Origin: Pirellulales bacterium | GTDB taxonomy: Bacteria; Planctomycetota; Planctomycetia; Pirellulales; JAICIG01 | DNA: 64,000 nt | Assembly: GCA_035533075.1 (NCBI GenBank) | Contig: DATLUO010000121.1 | Location: forward strand, 1-64,000 | Direction of reading: 5' to 3' | Shown: positions 17,074 to 23,569 of the stretch, piece by piece | Numbering within the stretch: position 1 is the stretch's first letter | How the letters are laid out: the number at the start of each line of letters is the position of its first letter | Notes under the pieces: generated by a model | Seen by the model: only the letters and a program-made list of their open reading frames with translations | What the model was told of the DNA's origin: nothing | The model's database searches: none | Translations under genes and position numbers: made by a program

Positions 17074-17266
17074 TAGGCTGTTGAAAAAATTTTAATCCAT
17101 GACATTCATTGGCGGGAACCACTGCTCGTTTTCTTTTCCCCTGCCGGCAATACGGCGCGGCGGGGCCGAAAAATTCCACAATTCTTGGGCCTGGGCGGGA
17201 AAGTTGTCGCTGCGACCGGCCACGATTGGGGCGCGCGCCGAGGGCACTGTCGGGCCCGGTGATTCT

Positions 17267-17297
17267 GGCGGTGAAATGGTAAGCTATTGTCTTGCGA
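17267..17297 (+). repeat. 31-bp direct repeat, copy 1
   Basis: GGCGGTGAAATGGTAAGCTA followed by TTGTCTTGCGA. It recurs with three differences at 17705-17735. Each copy lies 30-60 bp upstream of a gene start and contains an extended -10-like TGGTAAGCT, so it may be a duplicated promoter. Confidence 0.55.
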
Positions 17298-17326
17298 CCG
17301 CCCGCGATCCTGGGAACCCAAAGCCT

Positions 17327-17794
17327 ATGGCAGACAATCGAGTGCTCATCAACATCGATCAAATCGAGCCGTTGATCCTCGACATTCGAGGTCAGAAGGT
17401 CTTGCTGGACAAGGACTTGGCGGCCTTGTACGGGGTTCCGACGCGGCGACTCAACGAGCAGGTCCGGCGCAACCGAAACCGGTTTCCGGATGATTTCATG
17501 TTTCAGTTGACCAAAGAGGAGCTTGAGAATTGGAAGTCGCAAATTGCGACATCCAATTCCGCCGTGCGAATGGGGCTACGCCCCAAAAGCCGAAACGACG
17601 CATCGGCTTCGCCAGCAACGAACCGACGGAGTCAGACGGGGTCACCGCTAAATCCGTTCAATGCCGCATCTCGCCCAGCGGCGCGGCCGGCACCTACGTC
17701 GGGCGGAGGTGAAATGGTATGCTATGGTCTTGCGATATCCCCGGCCTTTTTACGCGGGAGGGTGTTATGGTCTCGAAGCGAGTACAAGTGCTGA
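17327..17794 (+). pseudogene. Truncated ORF6N (KilA-N-like) domain gene
   Basis: The first 83 codons match the ORF6N domain: IEPLILDIRGQKVLLDKDLA, LYGVPTRRLNEQVRRN, FPDDFMFQLTKEELENWKSQ, then ATSNSAVRMGLRPKS. Intact members continue with a conserved PYAFTE-type segment and a second helical half. Here the reading frame instead runs into unrelated Ser/Pro/Arg-rich sequence and stops at 17794. ORF6N proteins are phage and mobile-element regulators. The fragment lies between two copies of a 31-bp direct repeat. Confidence 0.75.
17705..17735 (+). repeat. 31-bp direct repeat, copy 2
   Basis: GGAGGTGAAATGGTATGCTA followed by TGGTCTTGCGA. TGGTATGCT resembles an extended -10 element 30 bp upstream of the next start codon at 17767. 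Confidence 0.55.
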
Positions 17795-18183
17795 TCGTGG
17801 TGGGGTTGTTGCTGGCGAGCGCGGCATGGAGGGCGGCGCCGGGGAAAGGGGTCGCCAAGGCGATCGACGATGCCAAGGTGAAGGTGGCCGCCAATGTGTA
17901 CGCGCAGATGTCGATGCGCAGGAGCAACAACGAGCAGTACGACATCGAAGACTTGGCGCTTTGGTCGCGGCATCTTTTCGATGCCGAGCTCGATGTGGCG
18001 GAGGACGACAACGAGCGGTTGGCCGTCTACGAGGCGCAACTGAAGCGGACCGCCGAACTGGCCAGGACGGCCCGGGCCTTTGCCGCCAACGGTCAGGCGC
18101 CGGAATCGGAAGCGTTGGCCGCCGAGTATTATCGTCTGGAGGCCGAATCGCAATTGGCCAAGGCCAAGGCGGGGTTGCGCTGA
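17767..18183 (+). CDS. Membrane-anchored or secreted helical hypothetical protein
   Basis: 138 aa from the ATG at 17767, chosen for its GGGAGGG ribosome site and because it opens with a hydrophobic export segment (MVSKRVQVLIVVGLLLASA). The mature part is almost entirely charged helix (DAELDVAEDDNERLAVYEAQ, then LAAEYYRLEAESQLAKAKAG), a coiled coil. No family was recognised. Similar short coiled-coil exported proteins are common in planctomycetes. The upstream 31-bp repeat probably contains its promoter. Confidence 0.6.
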   Translation: MVSKRVQVLIVVGLLLASAAWRAAPGKGVAKAIDDAKVKVAANVYAQMSMRRSNNEQYDIEDLALWSRHLFDAELDVAEDDNERLAVYEAQLKRTAELARTARAFAANGQAPESEALAAEYYRLEAESQLAKAKAGLR

Positions 18184-18207
18184 GCAGGCGCGAGTGATAC
18201 GACTACG

Positions 18208-18864
18208 TCATTGCTTGCGCGCGAAAACGTGCGTCGTCCATTCATCCCAGTCGGCTCCCGCGGGAGCGTCGGCGTCGCACGTTGCCGGCGATCCGCCTTC
18301 GGCAGGCAACGGCGACGAGAGAAAGTCGGGGTCGTTCAAGTCCGGCAGGCCGTCCTTCATCTTGACTTCGAGATAGAGCAAGCCATCGTCGAGCTTCAGG
18401 CGGGCATAGCACTTGCTCATATCGCCCGGGTCATATCGGTCTTCGTGGTGCCAGGCTTTGCCGCAAATCTTGCCGTCGTGTTCGTGCATACCGAAGAACC
18501 GGTACTCGGAGCCGTCCTTCCCCACGGCTTCGTTGCCCGTAATGGTCATCTCGGACAACATGCCGCCGAATTGCGGGTTCTGTGCATAGAACGCGCGGAT
18601 GGCCCCAATCTGCTCATCGCTGGCTCCGGCGGCTTGGTGAGCTTCGAGCGTCTTGTCGAGGTCCAGCACCCAGGTGCCCGCAAATGGCGATAGCAATGCG
18701 CTCTGGCCCGGCGGGCCAAAGGGTCCCTCGCCAGGCGCCGCGCCGCCGGGGCCGCCGCCAAGCTGAGGGCCGTTGGCGCCGCAACCGGCTTCCACAAGCA
18801 GCGGTAGGTAGATCGCGACGACTCGTCGAATAGTCCACGCCGACGATTTCGCCGTCTTTCTCAC
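18208..18864 (-). CDS. Lipoprotein, unknown function
   Basis: 218 aa from a GTG at 18864, preferred because GGAGG lies 6 bases upstream and it places a signal peptide ahead of the lipobox LVEAGC. After a Gly/Pro-rich linker the mature domain begins SPFAGTWVLDLDKTLEAHQA, followed by TITGNEAVGKDGSEYRFFG and LEVKMKDGLPDLNDPDFLS. The FAGTW/LD pattern resembles planctomycete lipoproteins of lipocalin-like fold; the ligand is unknown. It is convergent with the preceding helical gene, stops 24 bp apart. Confidence 0.7.
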   Translation of the reverse strand: MRKTAKSSAWTIRRVVAIYLPLLVEAGCGANGPQLGGGPGGAAPGEGPFGPPGQSALLSPFAGTWVLDLDKTLEAHQAAGASDEQIGAIRAFYAQNPQFGGMLSEMTITGNEAVGKDGSEYRFFGMHEHDGKICGKAWHHEDRYDPGDMSKCYARLKLDDGLLYLEVKMKDGLPDLNDPDFLSSPLPAEGGSPATCDADAPAGADWDEWTTHVFARKQ

Positions 18865-19121
18865 GGTAATCCTCCACGTTTTCAAGGTCGAGCCAATAGC
18901 AACGCCACGAAATGGCCAGCCCACGATGAACGGAAACCGTCGCATCACAGGGCGAAGTTTACCGCGCGTGGCGGCCGATTAGCCAGCCGGCTGCGATTTC
19001 TTGGGCAGCCGCTCGATTTTCCCGCGCAAATGGGCTTTTTTGGGCAAAGCCCCAACACCGTCAGGACCGCCGCGGATCTGCCCGGTAGACCGCGCTTGGG
19101 CTGCTGAGCGAGCACGCGGGC

Positions 19122-19220
19122 TCACGCGATGATCTCTTTCATCGGCTCGCCGTAATCAATCTCCAGCCGCTTGTGGCCCGGCACTTCCAGCCGCCGGGCG
19201 TCGAGACCGAGCTGCGGGGC
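19122..19220 (-). pseudogene. C-terminal remnant resembling a DUF1501 protein
   Basis: The minus-strand frame reads [19 protein letters not shown], then [12 protein letters not shown] and a stop. This resembles the closing segment of DUF1501 secreted proteins of planctomycetes. The rest of the gene is missing: the fragment abuts the stop codon of the toxin-antitoxin module immediately upstream (19228). The remainder of 18865-19121 shows nothing. Confidence 0.45.
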
Positions 19221-19227
19221 GGAGCGA

Positions 19228-19551
19228 TTAACCGCCGTCGATGCTCTTCGGGCGGCGCTTCGCTTTCACTTTCCTACTAGCTTTCGCATTTCGGTCTTGG
19301 CCGAATTCTTTCCACAATTCGTCACGCGATATCCCTCGGCCCTCGCGGATGGACTGCCGTGACTTGGCGAGAATCGCTTGCAATCGCGGTGAGTTTGCCA
19401 TTAAGACCCGCTCGATCTCATCGTCGTCCTCGATTCCCACTAGGACGGCGACTGGCTTGCCATTGCGTGTCACTACGACTGGCGCGGATTCACAGGCCTT
19501 AACGAATGCGCTAAATTGCGACTTCACCTCGCCCATCGAAGCAGTCTTCAT
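19228..19551 (-). CDS. Phd/YefM-family antitoxin
   Basis: 107 aa. The N-terminus [20 protein letters not shown], then [19 protein letters not shown] is the canonical Phd/YefM DNA-binding fold, and the C-terminal half ([20 protein letters not shown]) is the flexible toxin-binding tail, ending in a basic stretch. Its ATG overlaps the stop of the upstream toxin gene by 4 bp. Confidence 0.88.
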
Positions 19552-19868
19552 AGTTCAATCTCCTCTCCGCCAACGATTAGGCGATTTCTCCGTTTCTCGC
19601 CAATGGCCAAAACGTGGACCGTGCGCTCTTCCTCATCGACGCCGTAAAGCACACGGAAACGGTTTTGCGGTCCAAGGCGAATTTCCCAGTGCGCCGAAAA
19701 TGCTGCCGGGGTCCGCAAGGGTTTGCGATTCCGGGTTTCGACATTCGGTTCGAATTCGAGTTGTTCATCGATCGTCTGTAAGATCAGCGCGTGATACTTG
19801 GCATCGATGGCCTTGAGATGCGCGCGGATCTCATGGCCAAATTTCAACTCATAAGGCGGCTTCGCCAT
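19548..19868 (-). CDS. RelE/ParE-superfamily toxin
   Basis: 106 aa. Core features: YELKFGHEIRAHLKAIDAKY at the N-terminus, the basic RNRKPLRTPAAF segment, WEIRLGPQNRFRVLYGVDEE (the RelE beta-hairpin) and VHVLAIGEKRRNRLIVGGEE at the end. Again the toxin precedes its antitoxin and overlaps it by 4 bp, as in the module at 4958-5493, although the protein sequences are only distantly alike. The 98 bp upstream, to the sulfatase stop, must contain the promoter. Confidence 0.85.
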   Translation of the reverse strand: MAKPPYELKFGHEIRAHLKAIDAKYHALILQTIDEQLEFEPNVETRNRKPLRTPAAFSAHWEIRLGPQNRFRVLYGVDEEERTVHVLAIGEKRRNRLIVGGEEIEL

Positions 19869-19966
19869 ACTCTATTGATTCTGGCTGTAACTCGCCGTTC
19901 GTCAAGGCTGGCATCTCCCCCATGACAGGCGAAACAGCGTTCTTTAAGTAGGGTGCATAATCCGCT

Positions 19967-21409
19967 CTAACCGTTTTGCTTGCCGACACCGTCAGAGCCG
20001 CTACGGAGCTGCCCGGCAGGGCGACGATTTTTGCCTTTCTGCCCGGTGGCCGTGTCGCCCAGATCGTCGCGCGCCCGGTCGGCCAACGCCTTCAGCCGGC
20101 GGACTTCTTCGGGATGCTCGGCAGCGACGTTCTTGGTTTCGCCCGGATCGCTCTCAAGGTCGAACAACGACAGCTCGATGCGTCGCTGCTCGTACTTCGC
20201 GGGCAGGCCGCCGTGGCCGCCGCCGGCCGCAAGACTGCGGTAGGCGTGAGGCAGGTGCAGCTTCCAGCGACCGCTGCGGACGCCTTGTAGCTCGCCGCCC
20301 CAGTAGAAATAGAGCGCGTCGTGCGGACTCTTGGCGCCGGGCTGTGCCGAAATCAGCGGCCAGATGTCCAAGCCATCGATGATGCGATCGTCGGGTACGC
20401 TCGCGCCGGCCAGCCGGGCCAGCGTGGGCAGCAGGTCGATGGTCATGGCCGGTTCGCGGCAAACGGTGCCGGCGGGAATCTTGCCCGGCCACCGCATCAA
20501 GCACGGCTCGCGCACGCCGCCGTCGAACGAGGTGCCTTTGCCCTCGCGCAAGGGGCCGGCCGAACCGGCATGGTCGCCGTAGCTCAGCCACGGGCCGTTG
20601 TCGGACGTGAAGATCACCAGCGTCCGCTCGTCGAGTTTCAGACGCGCCAGCGTTTCCAGCACCCGCCCCACCGACCAGTCGACCTCCTCGATCACGTCGC
20701 CAAACAGCCCGCGCGGCGTCTTGCCGCGGAACTTGTCGGAAACGAAGAGCGGCACGTGCGGCATGTTGTGAGCCAGGTAGACGAAGAACGGCCGCTCGCG
20801 ATGCCGCTCGATAAAGCGCACCGCGTGCTCGGCGTACCAGGTGGTGAGCCGGCTCTGGTCGGGATTGAGCTCGATCGGCTTTTCGCCTTCGATGAGCGGC
20901 AGGTCGGGGAAGGCCCTCGTTTCGGGATGCTTGGGCCACATATCGTTCGAGTAGGGCAGCCCGAAGTATTCGTCAAAGCCGTGCCGCGTGGGCAGAAACT
21001 GCGGATGATGGCCGAGATGCCACTTGCCGTAGATGGCCGTCGCGTAGCCGCGGCCCTTGAGCAGCTCGGCCAGGGTCGTCTCGTCGTCGTTGATGCCGTG
21101 CCGGTCTTTCGGCCCCAGCGCGCCAAGGATGCCGACGCGGTTCGAGTAGCAGCCGGTCAACAGCGCCGCCCGCGATGCCGAGCAGACCGCCTGAGCCACA
21201 TAGAAATCGGTGAAGCGAACGCCTTCTTTTGCCAGCCGGTCGAGGTTGGGCGTGCGGTAGCCTTGTGCCCCATAACAACCGAGGTCGCCGTAGCCAAGAT
21301 CGTCGGCGAAGACGAGCACGATATTGGGCGGCGCCGCGTCGTCGGCAAACGCCGGCACGCACCAAAAGACAACGGCCGTAAACGCGGCGATCGCATGGAT
21401 CATCGTCAT
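19967..21409 (-). CDS. Secreted sulfatase (arylsulfatase A-like), Cys-type
   Basis: 480 aa, with a signal peptide ([18 protein letters not shown]) and a GGAGGTGACCT ribosome site before ATG 21409. Metal site [19 protein letters not shown] at residues 29-47. The active-site signature is [11 protein letters not shown] with Cys76, expected to be converted to formylglycine; position +2 is Ala rather than the commoner Pro, which anaerobic and aerobic maturases can tolerate. Other family motifs: [36 protein letters not shown] and [13 protein letters not shown]. It probably desulfates polysaccharide in the periplasm or outside the cell. No maturase gene is in the window. Confidence 0.95.
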
Positions 21410-21509
21410 TAGGTCACCTCCGCTGGCTGGGTTGGATATTCGCTGGGGACGTATAGCGATTCATCTCTGATTGCCGCCTATACTTCAGGCGGCCGAGAAT
21501 GAAACATTC

Positions 21510-21584
21510 GCGGTGGCTGGGGCAGAGCTTGGCCAGGTGGAAGGTGGCACGATGTTCGTCTCGGCGGCCAAGCGATGCCCCGGT
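21510..21584. repeat. Dispersed repeat with GGTGGCTGGGGCAGAGC and GATGCCCCGGT ends
   Basis: GCGGTGGCTGGGGCAGAGC (21510-21528) and GCGATGCCCCGGT (21572-21584) also occur, in the same order and at similar distance, at 48087-48157. It lies between the sulfatase start and the small membrane protein. Confidence 0.55.
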
Positions 21585-21595
21585 TGGGTAATGGC

Positions 21596-21760
21596 CTATT
21601 CCTGTGTGGCTGGCGCACTGAGGTCATGTATCACAACGCCCTCGGCCCACCCATCAGCTGTCATCGTTCGCTTTTGCCAGGATGCGCCGGTAAAGAACGC
21701 AGCCACGACGAGCATGGCCACGAACAACCACTTCAAGCTGAACTGAAAACGGCTGCGCAT
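21596..21760 (-). CDS. Small single-pass membrane protein (54 aa)
   Basis: MRSRFQFSLKWLFVAMLVVA, then AFFTGASWQKR, then a 20-residue polar tail ending APATQE. The RFQFSLKxLxVxMLVVAxFF opening is a recurring start of small membrane proteins in planctomycetes, which supports it as a real gene in spite of its length. The function is unknown. Its start lies 46 bp from the divergent tRNA-like gene. Confidence 0.55.
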   Translation of the reverse strand: MRSRFQFSLKWLFVAMLVVAAFFTGASWQKRTMTADGWAEGVVIHDLSAPATQE

Positions 21761-21805
21761 GAGGGTATTATCCAGCTTTGCCCTGTCGGCTACAATGTCG
21801 GCATT

Positions 21806-21916
21806 GCCCCTGTGGTGGAACTAGGCAGACACGCTGGGCTGATTGCGGCTTTCTCGCGAGAGCCTCAATCAGCCCCAGTGCCGCAAGGCGTGCGGGTTCG
21901 ATTCCCGCCGGGGGTA
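21806..21916 (+). tRNA. tRNA-Leu-like sequence with a 35-nt hairpin in place of the anticodon loop
   Basis: Acceptor GCCCCTG pairs with CGGGGGT (21909-21915), giving the G1-U72 pair of tRNA-Leu(UAA). The Leu D-arm (GTG, loop with AGGCAGA, CAC), class II variable arm (GCC, GCAA, GGC) and T-arm (GCGGG, TTCGATT, CCCGC) are all intact, as is the anticodon stem CTGGG/CCCAG. The anticodon loop, however, is 35 nt (21839-21873) and forms its own hairpin (CTGATTG/CAATCAG plus an inner GGCT/AGCC). No 7-nt loop with a Leu anticodon can be made by simple excision. TACAAT (21791-21796) sits 9 bp upstream as a -10. No CCA is encoded. It may be an interrupted pseudo-tRNA or an unusual functional RNA. Confidence 0.6.
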
Positions 21917-21917
21917 C

Positions 21918-22397
21918 TCAAAGCCTTATTCCAGCCTCCGCCAGAAAGTCTATGGGGCTGGCCCACCCGACTTTGAGCGCGTTGCAGACGTCTGGTATTT
22001 TGGGCGGCTTGCTGGCCCGTCGATTGGGCGCCGACACTTCGTCTGTCACAACGATTGCGCCACGCGACATGGCTTCGGCGATAACCCAGGGGTCCGAGGC
22101 ATTCGCGTGGCCACTTTCAGCCGCGAAATTCGGGAAGTGGCCCATTATGTGTTGCATGTTCGCTATGACCTGATCGTCTGGCTCGAAAAAGAACTGCTTT
22201 CGTTGCGTTGCCCAGACGAGCAGAGGGTCTCGTTGCTTCTTTAGGTCGTCAAACACTTCTCTGCACGAGAAGACATTTCCAGCATAAAGAAGCTTGTCAA
22301 TTTCTTCCCAAAGCGTCGGGAATACGTCTCTCCGGTAGCGCTTCCACCAGCCGTTGTTCAGAAAGCTCGTGTCTAAGCAGAATAGCGTCGCAATCAC
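21918..22397 (-). CDS. DUF4411 family PIN-like protein
   Basis: 159 aa. LFCLDTSFLNNGWWKRY at the N-terminus supplies the first PIN acidic residue. FPTLWEEIDKLLYAGNVFSC, a conserved REVFDDLKKQRDPL, SDPWVIAEAMSRGAIVVTDE (central acidic residues) and KIPDVCNALKVGWASPIDFL follow, matching DUF4411. PIN folds are usually RNases and typically toxins. The start overlaps the stop of the ImmA/IrrE gene by 4 bp, so the two are co-translated. The stop codon begins 2 bases after the end of the tRNA-like sequence on the other strand. Base composition is clearly lower in GC than its neighbours. Confidence 0.88.
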   Translation of the reverse strand: MIATLFCLDTSFLNNGWWKRYRRDVFPTLWEEIDKLLYAGNVFSCREVFDDLKKQRDPLLVWATQRKQFFFEPDDQVIANMQHIMGHFPNFAAESGHANASDPWVIAEAMSRGAIVVTDEVSAPNRRASKPPKIPDVCNALKVGWASPIDFLAEAGIRL

Positions 22398-23569
22398 GAC
22401 ATGCCGCTCTCCTCCGATTGCATCTGCACCGGATAAAGAGAATGCACCATCGGTGCGAGATGTTTGAGGGGCATGTTCAAAAGTGTCGTAACCTGACCGC
22501 CGTGAATCTCTCCAGAATCAAAAGCCGAAACAACCAGCCGCGCGAAAGACGGACCGGAACGAGACAGTACAAGCCGGTATTGTGGGATGGGCCTGTCGCT
22601 TGATTCTGCGGCCTCAGCCTCTGGTTTTGGGTGAAACATCGCCCACCTGTTTGAAAGCCAGTCATTATCGGCCATCCCAAGTTCGGCCAGCCGTATTGCC
22701 ATGACAGCTCGGCTAACCCTATAGCGATTTGCGAATTGCGATACAACGCTCTCCTCATTGTTCTCCCAGTTATTCGGCACCCGAATAACAATGTCGTCGC
22801 TTGGAATTAGAACCTCCGCCGCAACTTTATTGCAGAACCGTTCGACGTTAGATTGTGGGGCAAGCGCCGAAGTAATGGCGTCCCCGGTGGTAATCGCCGA
22901 TTCTCCCAGCGCAATATGCACTACCTCATGGATCAAGGTGAAACACTTGGCCGTGTTGGCATCGCGACTATTGATAAGGGCAACGGGTGCGTAATCGTCG
23001 GCGATAGCGCAGCCGCTTATCTCATTAGCTCGATTGGACTGAAACACGAAAACGCCAATCTGCTCACAAGCATCACGCCACATCGTAAACGCTTCGAGTT
23101 CATCGCGGCAACCAAATTGTCGCTCTAAACTGACCCCTAGTAGCGCACGCAACTTTACGCCAACATCCTTGGTGCTATCCGACACCTTGACCGAGCGAAC
23201 AACATCGCACTTTGGTGAATCCGAATCGCGCAGATATTCCGAAGCCCACTGCTGCCGTTCCTTAGCGGCCCGGATGGCATAGAGGAGAGCAGGCGAGAAG
23301 CGACGGCTAGCGTCACGTCGAATCCGAAAGTCGCGGACGTTGAATTCTTTGGGAGGTGCCGGCAAGTAAAAGACCATCAGCGGTCTTCTGTATCTCTTAG
23401 CCAGCTTTCGCAGCCTAGGGAGGGACGGACTTTCTTTTCCTGATTCCCAGTCAAGAATGTCCTGCTCGGAAAAGCTCTCGAATTTTGCGACCGCCTCGAC
23501 GGAATACCCAGCCCTCTCCCTCGCCCATTTGATCATCCGAGGCGTTGCGTTGGAAGAAACTCGTGGCAT
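22394..23569 (-). CDS. XRE-type regulator fused to ImmA/IrrE metallopeptidase
   Basis: 391 aa. Residues 10-65 form a helix-turn-helix (MIKWARERAGYSVEAVAKFE, ILDWESGKESPSLPRLRKLA). Residues 150-300 form the ImmA/IrrE zinc peptidase with IHEVVHIALGESA (His214, Glu215, His218) and ERFCNKVAAEVLIP. In phage and ICE systems such proteins cleave a repressor; paired with DUF4411 they behave like a toxin-antitoxin or stress-responsive unit in many genomes. It is first gene of the operon, driven by the consensus promoter at 23651-23690, which it probably represses itself (inference from the overlapping dyad). Confidence 0.9.
   Translation of the reverse strand: MPRVSSNATPRMIKWARERAGYSVEAVAKFESFSEQDILDWESGKESPSLPRLRKLAKRYRRPLMVFYLPAPPKEFNVRDFRIRRDASRRFSPALLYAIRAAKERQQWASEYLRDSDSPKCDVVRSVKVSDSTKDVGVKLRALLGVSLERQFGCRDELEAFTMWRDACEQIGVFVFQSNRANEISGCAIADDYAPVALINSRDANTAKCFTLIHEVVHIALGESAITTGDAITSALAPQSNVERFCNKVAAEVLIPSDDIVIRVPNNWENNEESVVSQFANRYRVSRAVMAIRLAELGMADNDWLSNRWAMFHPKPEAEAAESSDRPIPQYRLVLSRSGPSFARLVVSAFDSGEIHGGQVTTLLNMPLKHLAPMVHSLYPVQMQSEESGMS

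Follow-up and report, generated by a model that had tools for sequence, protein, structure and literature searches.

A stretch of 64,000 nucleotides from a Pirellulales bacterium, referred to here as the window, contains a tRNA-Leu gene in which a long hairpin occupies the place of the anticodon loop. Judged from its sequence, this element is a genuine hairpin-armed, non-decoding derivative of tRNA-Leu. It is a class II tRNA-Leu cloverleaf at 21806-21916 of the forward strand. The coordinates and the anatomy given in the first-pass annotation were correct; every cloverleaf arm is intact, including G1-U72 and the variable arm, and a structured 35-nt insert stands where the loop should be. The parts of the element are:

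21791-21796, forward strand: -10-like box TACAAT, ending 9 nt before the tRNA 5' end, with no convincing -35 box
21806-21812, forward strand: 5' strand of the acceptor stem, GCCCCTG, pairing with 21909-21915, with the wobbles G1-U72 and U6-G67 (from the sequence and the Rfam alignment)
21815-21832, forward strand: D arm, stem GTG/CAC, with U11-A24, where the compared host tRNA-Leu genes have C11-G24
21834-21838, forward strand: 5' strand of the anticodon stem, CTGGG
21839-21873, forward strand: 35 nt replacing the 7-nt anticodon loop, forming together with 21838 two helices, with a C-U mismatch and a TCGC loop
21874-21878, forward strand: 3' strand of the anticodon stem, CCCAG
21879-21891, forward strand: class II variable arm, T-GCC-GCAA-GGC-GT, its core that of tRNA-Leu(UAG) of two relatives (G001 and G024)
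21892-21908, forward strand: T arm, GCGGG-TTCGATT-CCCGC
21909-21916, forward strand: 3' strand of the acceptor stem and discriminator A73, with no encoded CCA, followed by CT

The Rfam tRNA model, RF00005, aligns to 21806-21916 of the forward strand over its full length with no broken stem pair. The score is 39.7 bits against a cut-off of 29 (E 5.2e-7, from a 501-base search), and the anticodon loop carries a 31-nt insert in the alignment. By comparison, the host's six normal tRNA-Leu genes score 51.7-59.7 bits. The element was missed in whole-window searches by ARAGORN without introns and by Rfam with fast filters. With introns allowed, ARAGORN called Cys(GCA) with a 28-nt intron at this position; that identity is an artefact of the program's intron rule and is meaningless. 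The stems, the conserved loop bases and tertiary invariants, the long variable arm, A73, and the promoter and trailer context are all those of a bacterial class II tRNA-Leu. What differs is the 35-nt hairpin where a 7-nt loop with a Leu anticodon belongs. The RNA would be unable to decode because its anticodon loop became a hairpin of about 19 bp stacked on the anticodon stem.

The hairpin reads GCTGATTG-C-GGCTTTC-TCGC-GAGAGCC-T-CAATCAGC. Its two helices are 21838-21845/21866-21873 and 21847-21853/21858-21864. It is flush with the anticodon stem and continuous apart from one bulged C, and there is no unpaired remnant of the old loop. Its irregularities are one mismatch (C-U), one G-U pair, and one bulge. 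The arm has a folding energy of -30.4 kcal/mol, with a z of -5.4 against shuffled loops, and whole-RNA folding gives a z of -3.6. The insert described in the first-pass annotation is a near-perfect hairpin. A dispersed palindromic repeat inserted into a tRNA gene was considered and ruled out, since no other copy covering the palindromic insert was found in the organism's own genome (E<=10). Plain palindrome insertions also look different. In the one at L106, a Bacteroidota genome, CTCAAAA is still visible, whereas the window hairpin leaves no part of the loop.

The upstream box noted earlier also held up under comparison. TACAAT has a best-hexamer score of 4.2 (p ~0.017 against shuffled upstream DNA) and, set against the -10 boxes of 40 tRNA genes of the host, is among the best. 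Its spacing is the same as that of the host tRNA-Met (TAAAAT) and tRNA-Val (TATATT) genes. At the other end, CT rather than CCA follows the discriminator in at least 45 of 88 host tRNA genes, in arrays and singletons alike, as counted with a crude boundary finder. The CT after A73 of the element also overlaps the complement of the stop codon of the neighboring toxin gene.

The cloverleaf body evolved under pairing selection, as its changes keep the pairs. Of 40 stem positions, 10 are not the same as in the host's closest tRNA-Leu (CAA). They make up five double-sided pair changes, and no pair is broken, where random changes would be expected to break about seven. The body thus has a long history of such selection, but this does not date the hairpin, and the pair-preserving changes may predate it. 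A DNA similarity search of 39 relatives gave no copy of the element; its matches there were of the 3' half only, to normal tRNA-Leu(UAG). It was also absent from 396 other sampled genomes of the order in a spacing-pattern scan, most matches of which were other tRNAs with a chance AGAC upstream or tmRNA 3' ends. A homologue of the insert was not found in about 85,000 species genomes (strict pattern), in IMG/VR, or in viral contigs. Close relatives holding only decayed copies had been proposed as grounds for rejecting the element; none of the relatives yielded a copy, decayed or intact. Searches by DNA similarity for a phage or plasmid origin gave no match, and no attachment-site duplication, in the form of a second copy of the tRNA 3' end, was found within the window.

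Whether the element could still serve in decoding was explored by excision. All splits yielding a loop of 7 nt were tried, and none of the products had a Leu anticodon, as the first-pass annotation had stated. The anticodons read by eye in the products were GAU, GAA, GCA, and UCA. Other tRNA-Leu genes, which it had been suggested should be looked for, are present and normal elsewhere in the 8.5-Mb, 99% complete genome. They are CAA, UAA, UAG, CAG, and two GAG, so that all five isoacceptors are represented and the element is dispensable for decoding. Given both results, it is, as far as its sequence indicates, non-decoding for leucine, neither needed nor usable whether spliced or not.

These results also bear on the possibility, raised earlier, of a novel mini-intron, in which the extra 28 nt would be removed after transcription to give a mature tRNA. 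Phage tRNA-Leu genes with inserts of 21-36 nt do exist in which removal gives CTTAAAA, and a gene for RtcB RNA ligase is present in the genome. However, the possible products here would read Ile, Phe, Cys, or UGA, every Leu isoacceptor is already available, and the insert is unlike the phage inserts that restore CTTAAAA. Bacteria are not known to have a splicing endonuclease for such introns. In the excision test, no product combined a 7-nt loop, U33, and a Leu anticodon, as a short intron of this sort would require. Group I introns fare no better. The element resembles the tRNA-Leu(UAA) group I introns in having its insert at the same place, the tRNA-Leu anticodon loop, but those introns have about 200 nt or more and a ribozyme core, a size far above 28 nt, and a Leu-restoring excision is lacking here. 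No Rfam intron match to the element was found at E up to 10. A mini-intron is therefore disfavoured and seems very improbable.

When about 85,000 species genomes and IMG/VR were scanned by pattern, other tRNA-Leu genes with structured inserts in the anticodon loop came to light. They fall into two groups. In one, excision restores a Leu loop. This group includes two Planctomycetota loci (L119 and L123), L134, and phage loci L182, L184, L186, L190, L200, L203, L378, and L432. In the other, as in the window, no excision does so. It contains L125 from Amylibacter, the viral contig L211, L148 and L178 from Chloroflexi, and the prophage contig L367. These five share with the window element a long hairpin that continues the anticodon stem; their arms have no sequence homology to the window arm. 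Homology does link the arms of L148 and L178 to each other, with 25 of 39 positions identical (p ~0.001 against hairpin-preserving shuffles), and such a gene is present in 2 of 197 genomes of their order. A perfect TATAAT box precedes L178 by 11 nt. A normal tRNA-Leu(UAG) was not found by pattern in the host genomes of L148, L178, and L108. From these comparisons, the window element appears to belong to a rare but recurrent kind, and not to a sequence family.

The phage genes (L186, L190, L200, L203, L378, L432, L482, and L484) are similar in having a structured insert of 21-36 nt in an otherwise intact tRNA-Leu. They differ in that excision restores CTTAAAA, and in several stretches UAA would otherwise be missing; neither holds for the window element. 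Five genes on phage contigs, L432:5454-5572(+), L378:6617-6733(+), L484:12721-12841(-), L482 from about 10530(+), and L486 near 5771(+), have different bodies and a near-invariant insert of 32-35 nt, CTT[CTACGGAACATCTGCT-N3..5-GCGGGTGTTCAAA]AAAA, which varies only at the hairpin tip. Its excision restores CTTAAAA (UAA). L378 and L432 carry many tRNAs, and UAA is the Leu isoacceptor that they otherwise lack. The shared insert had no match among phage records and matched no Rfam family except tRNA. Its appearance is that of a mini-intron or a structured insert that has been conserved. The viral contigs L186, L190, and L200 have tRNA-Leu(UAA) genes with 26-nt inserts, and the flanking helix covaries across the three (CTTAACGG/CCGTTAA, CTTACGG/CCGTAA, and CTTAACAC/GTGTTAA). 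The two Planctomycetota MAGs L119 and L123 have a tRNA-Leu in common; its 26-nt insert is nearly the same in both, the differences being almost confined to the tip and upper stem of the hairpin. Excision there leaves a CAA or UAA loop, and a normal UAA gene is also present in the L119 genome. In the Bacteroidota MAGs L106 and L175, a duplicate tRNA-Leu(CAA) has a CCTGCC...GGCAGG palindrome within its anticodon loop; in the L175 genome an intact copy of the gene lies about 370 bases upstream. Relaxed scans gave many further viral matches whose identity as tRNA-Leu could not be established. In the open-licence literature, no account was found of anticodon-loop inserts this short in tRNAs of bacteria or phages.

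A tRNA-mimicking RNA of a known type, such as a Y RNA (YrlA type), can be set aside for practical purposes. There is a weak Rfam match to the Deinococcus Y RNA, but its 25.4 bits are far under the cut-off of 80 and are explained by the T arm. The ends of the element form a normal acceptor stem, and the genome has no Ro60 (TROVE) gene.

The element adjoins a toxin-antitoxin locus:

21918-22397, reverse strand: VapC52-like PIN-fold toxin (DUF4411); it and the tRNA-like gene lie tail to tail, 1 nt apart
22394-23569, reverse strand: HTH and IrrE/M78 peptidase antitoxin, VapB52-like

Both proteins match PDB 9vzy (E 2e-23 for the toxin and E 4e-29 for its partner), an entry whose depositors name a DUF4411 family protein and an HTH protein. 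By sequence, this is a toxin and antitoxin pair with the architecture of the Mycobacterium tuberculosis VapBC52. In M. tuberculosis, the toxin VapC52 cleaves tRNAs of both host and phage in the anticodon loop or the variable loop, and its antitoxin cleaves itself with single-stranded DNA (PMC13273310). The surrounding region, 17099-23569, is a mobile or toxin-antitoxin patch with an ORF6N protein, a Phd/YefM and ParE-like pair, and the VapBC52-like pair around a sulfatase gene. If the RNA has a use, the most plausible one would be to serve a nuclease of anticodon loops, for example the abutting toxin, as a putative substrate or decoy, although we hold this to be rather unlikely. Just as doubtful is the fuller proposal that the hairpin of this tRNA-Leu turned non-decoding RNA is a putative decoy or regulator for an adjacent tRNA-cleaving, VapC52-like phage-defence toxin, and that the hairpin-armed tRNA-Leu genes elsewhere are of the same functional kind.

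The hairpin-armed L178 gene is also tail to tail with an adjoining PIN-domain gene, which belongs to a different PIN family from that in the window. PIN genes are scarce, with 39 in the window's genome and 4 in that of L178. The chance of a PIN gene lying beside one of about six other cases was estimated, after the window had been seen, at a few percent. An RNA acting as decoy or antidote to a VapC-type toxin should show conserved linkage with the toxin gene, and such linkage was not found. In three relatives, the flanks covered around the DUF4411 gene contain no tRNA-like gene, and the flanking genes examined at L108, L125, L148, L211, and L367 yielded no PIN domain. For these reasons, the putative decoy role is a lead rather than a finding.

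The element could possibly be kept as a structured RNA for some use, and this is the reading that we tentatively prefer. It would have originated from a tRNA-Leu whose anticodon loop became a hairpin of about 19 bp, giving a tRNA-shaped, non-decoding RNA. It would be transcribed from its own promoter, trimmed at its ends as a tRNA is, and not spliced, and it would persist as a structured RNA and not as a dying gene. In favor of this are the complete tRNA match, the pair-preserving stems, a promoter among the best of the host's tRNA genes, the A73-CT trailer, the hairpin flush with its stem, and the similar genes in other phyla and in phages. Against it, the element is a singleton with no homologous insert in genome or viral collections, its loss would be tolerated with all Leu isoacceptors present, and no tRNA adjoins the same toxin in three relatives.

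It is also quite conceivable that the gene is a dead relic. A redundant tRNA-Leu, possibly acquired horizontally, would have been disabled recently by a short quasi-palindrome that replaced its anticodon loop, and the cloverleaf would be intact only because the event was recent. The single copy without an orthologue and the full normal Leu set fit such a history, as do the plain palindromes in duplicate tRNA-Leu genes elsewhere (L106, and L175 beside its intact twin). A relic would be unremarkable, because degenerate tRNA clusters are common in Planctomycetes (PMC4807772). The element resembles these in being an odd tRNA gene in a planctomycete-like genome, but it is solitary, outside any array, and its cloverleaf is undegraded. 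Dense divergent tRNA arrays, some of whose genes have unusually long variable regions, are found on other contigs (C52, C74, C1, C216, and C135 of G000; L043-L047), beside the normal chromosomal set. The unbroken stem pairs, the good promoter, the absence of a loop remnant, and a palindrome without a second copy in the genome speak against a relic. The hairpin has a mismatch, a G-U pair, and a bulge. Had it been perfect at the start and drifted afterwards, some damage to the body should have come with this, and the body is undamaged; a hairpin that was imperfect from the start is just as compatible with a recent death of the gene. Since the starting state of the hairpin decides the fit, the two readings were scored almost equally. 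The earlier suggestions of a disrupted gene and of a tRNA-derived regulatory RNA thus both stand, the latter favored by the compensatory evolution of the body and the good promoter and countered by the singleton status.

Real and clean, the element represents a kind that recurs, yet it is itself a singleton. As a relic, it would be a minor curiosity. The phage tRNA-Leu genes with short conserved inserts in the anticodon loop would be of wider interest if they are spliced. In the laboratory, a "tRNA scaffold" is a tRNA with a foreign hairpin replacing its anticodon. If the RNA from the window is made and is stable, it would be a natural counterpart of this scaffold, and tRNA bodies would be reused beyond decoding.
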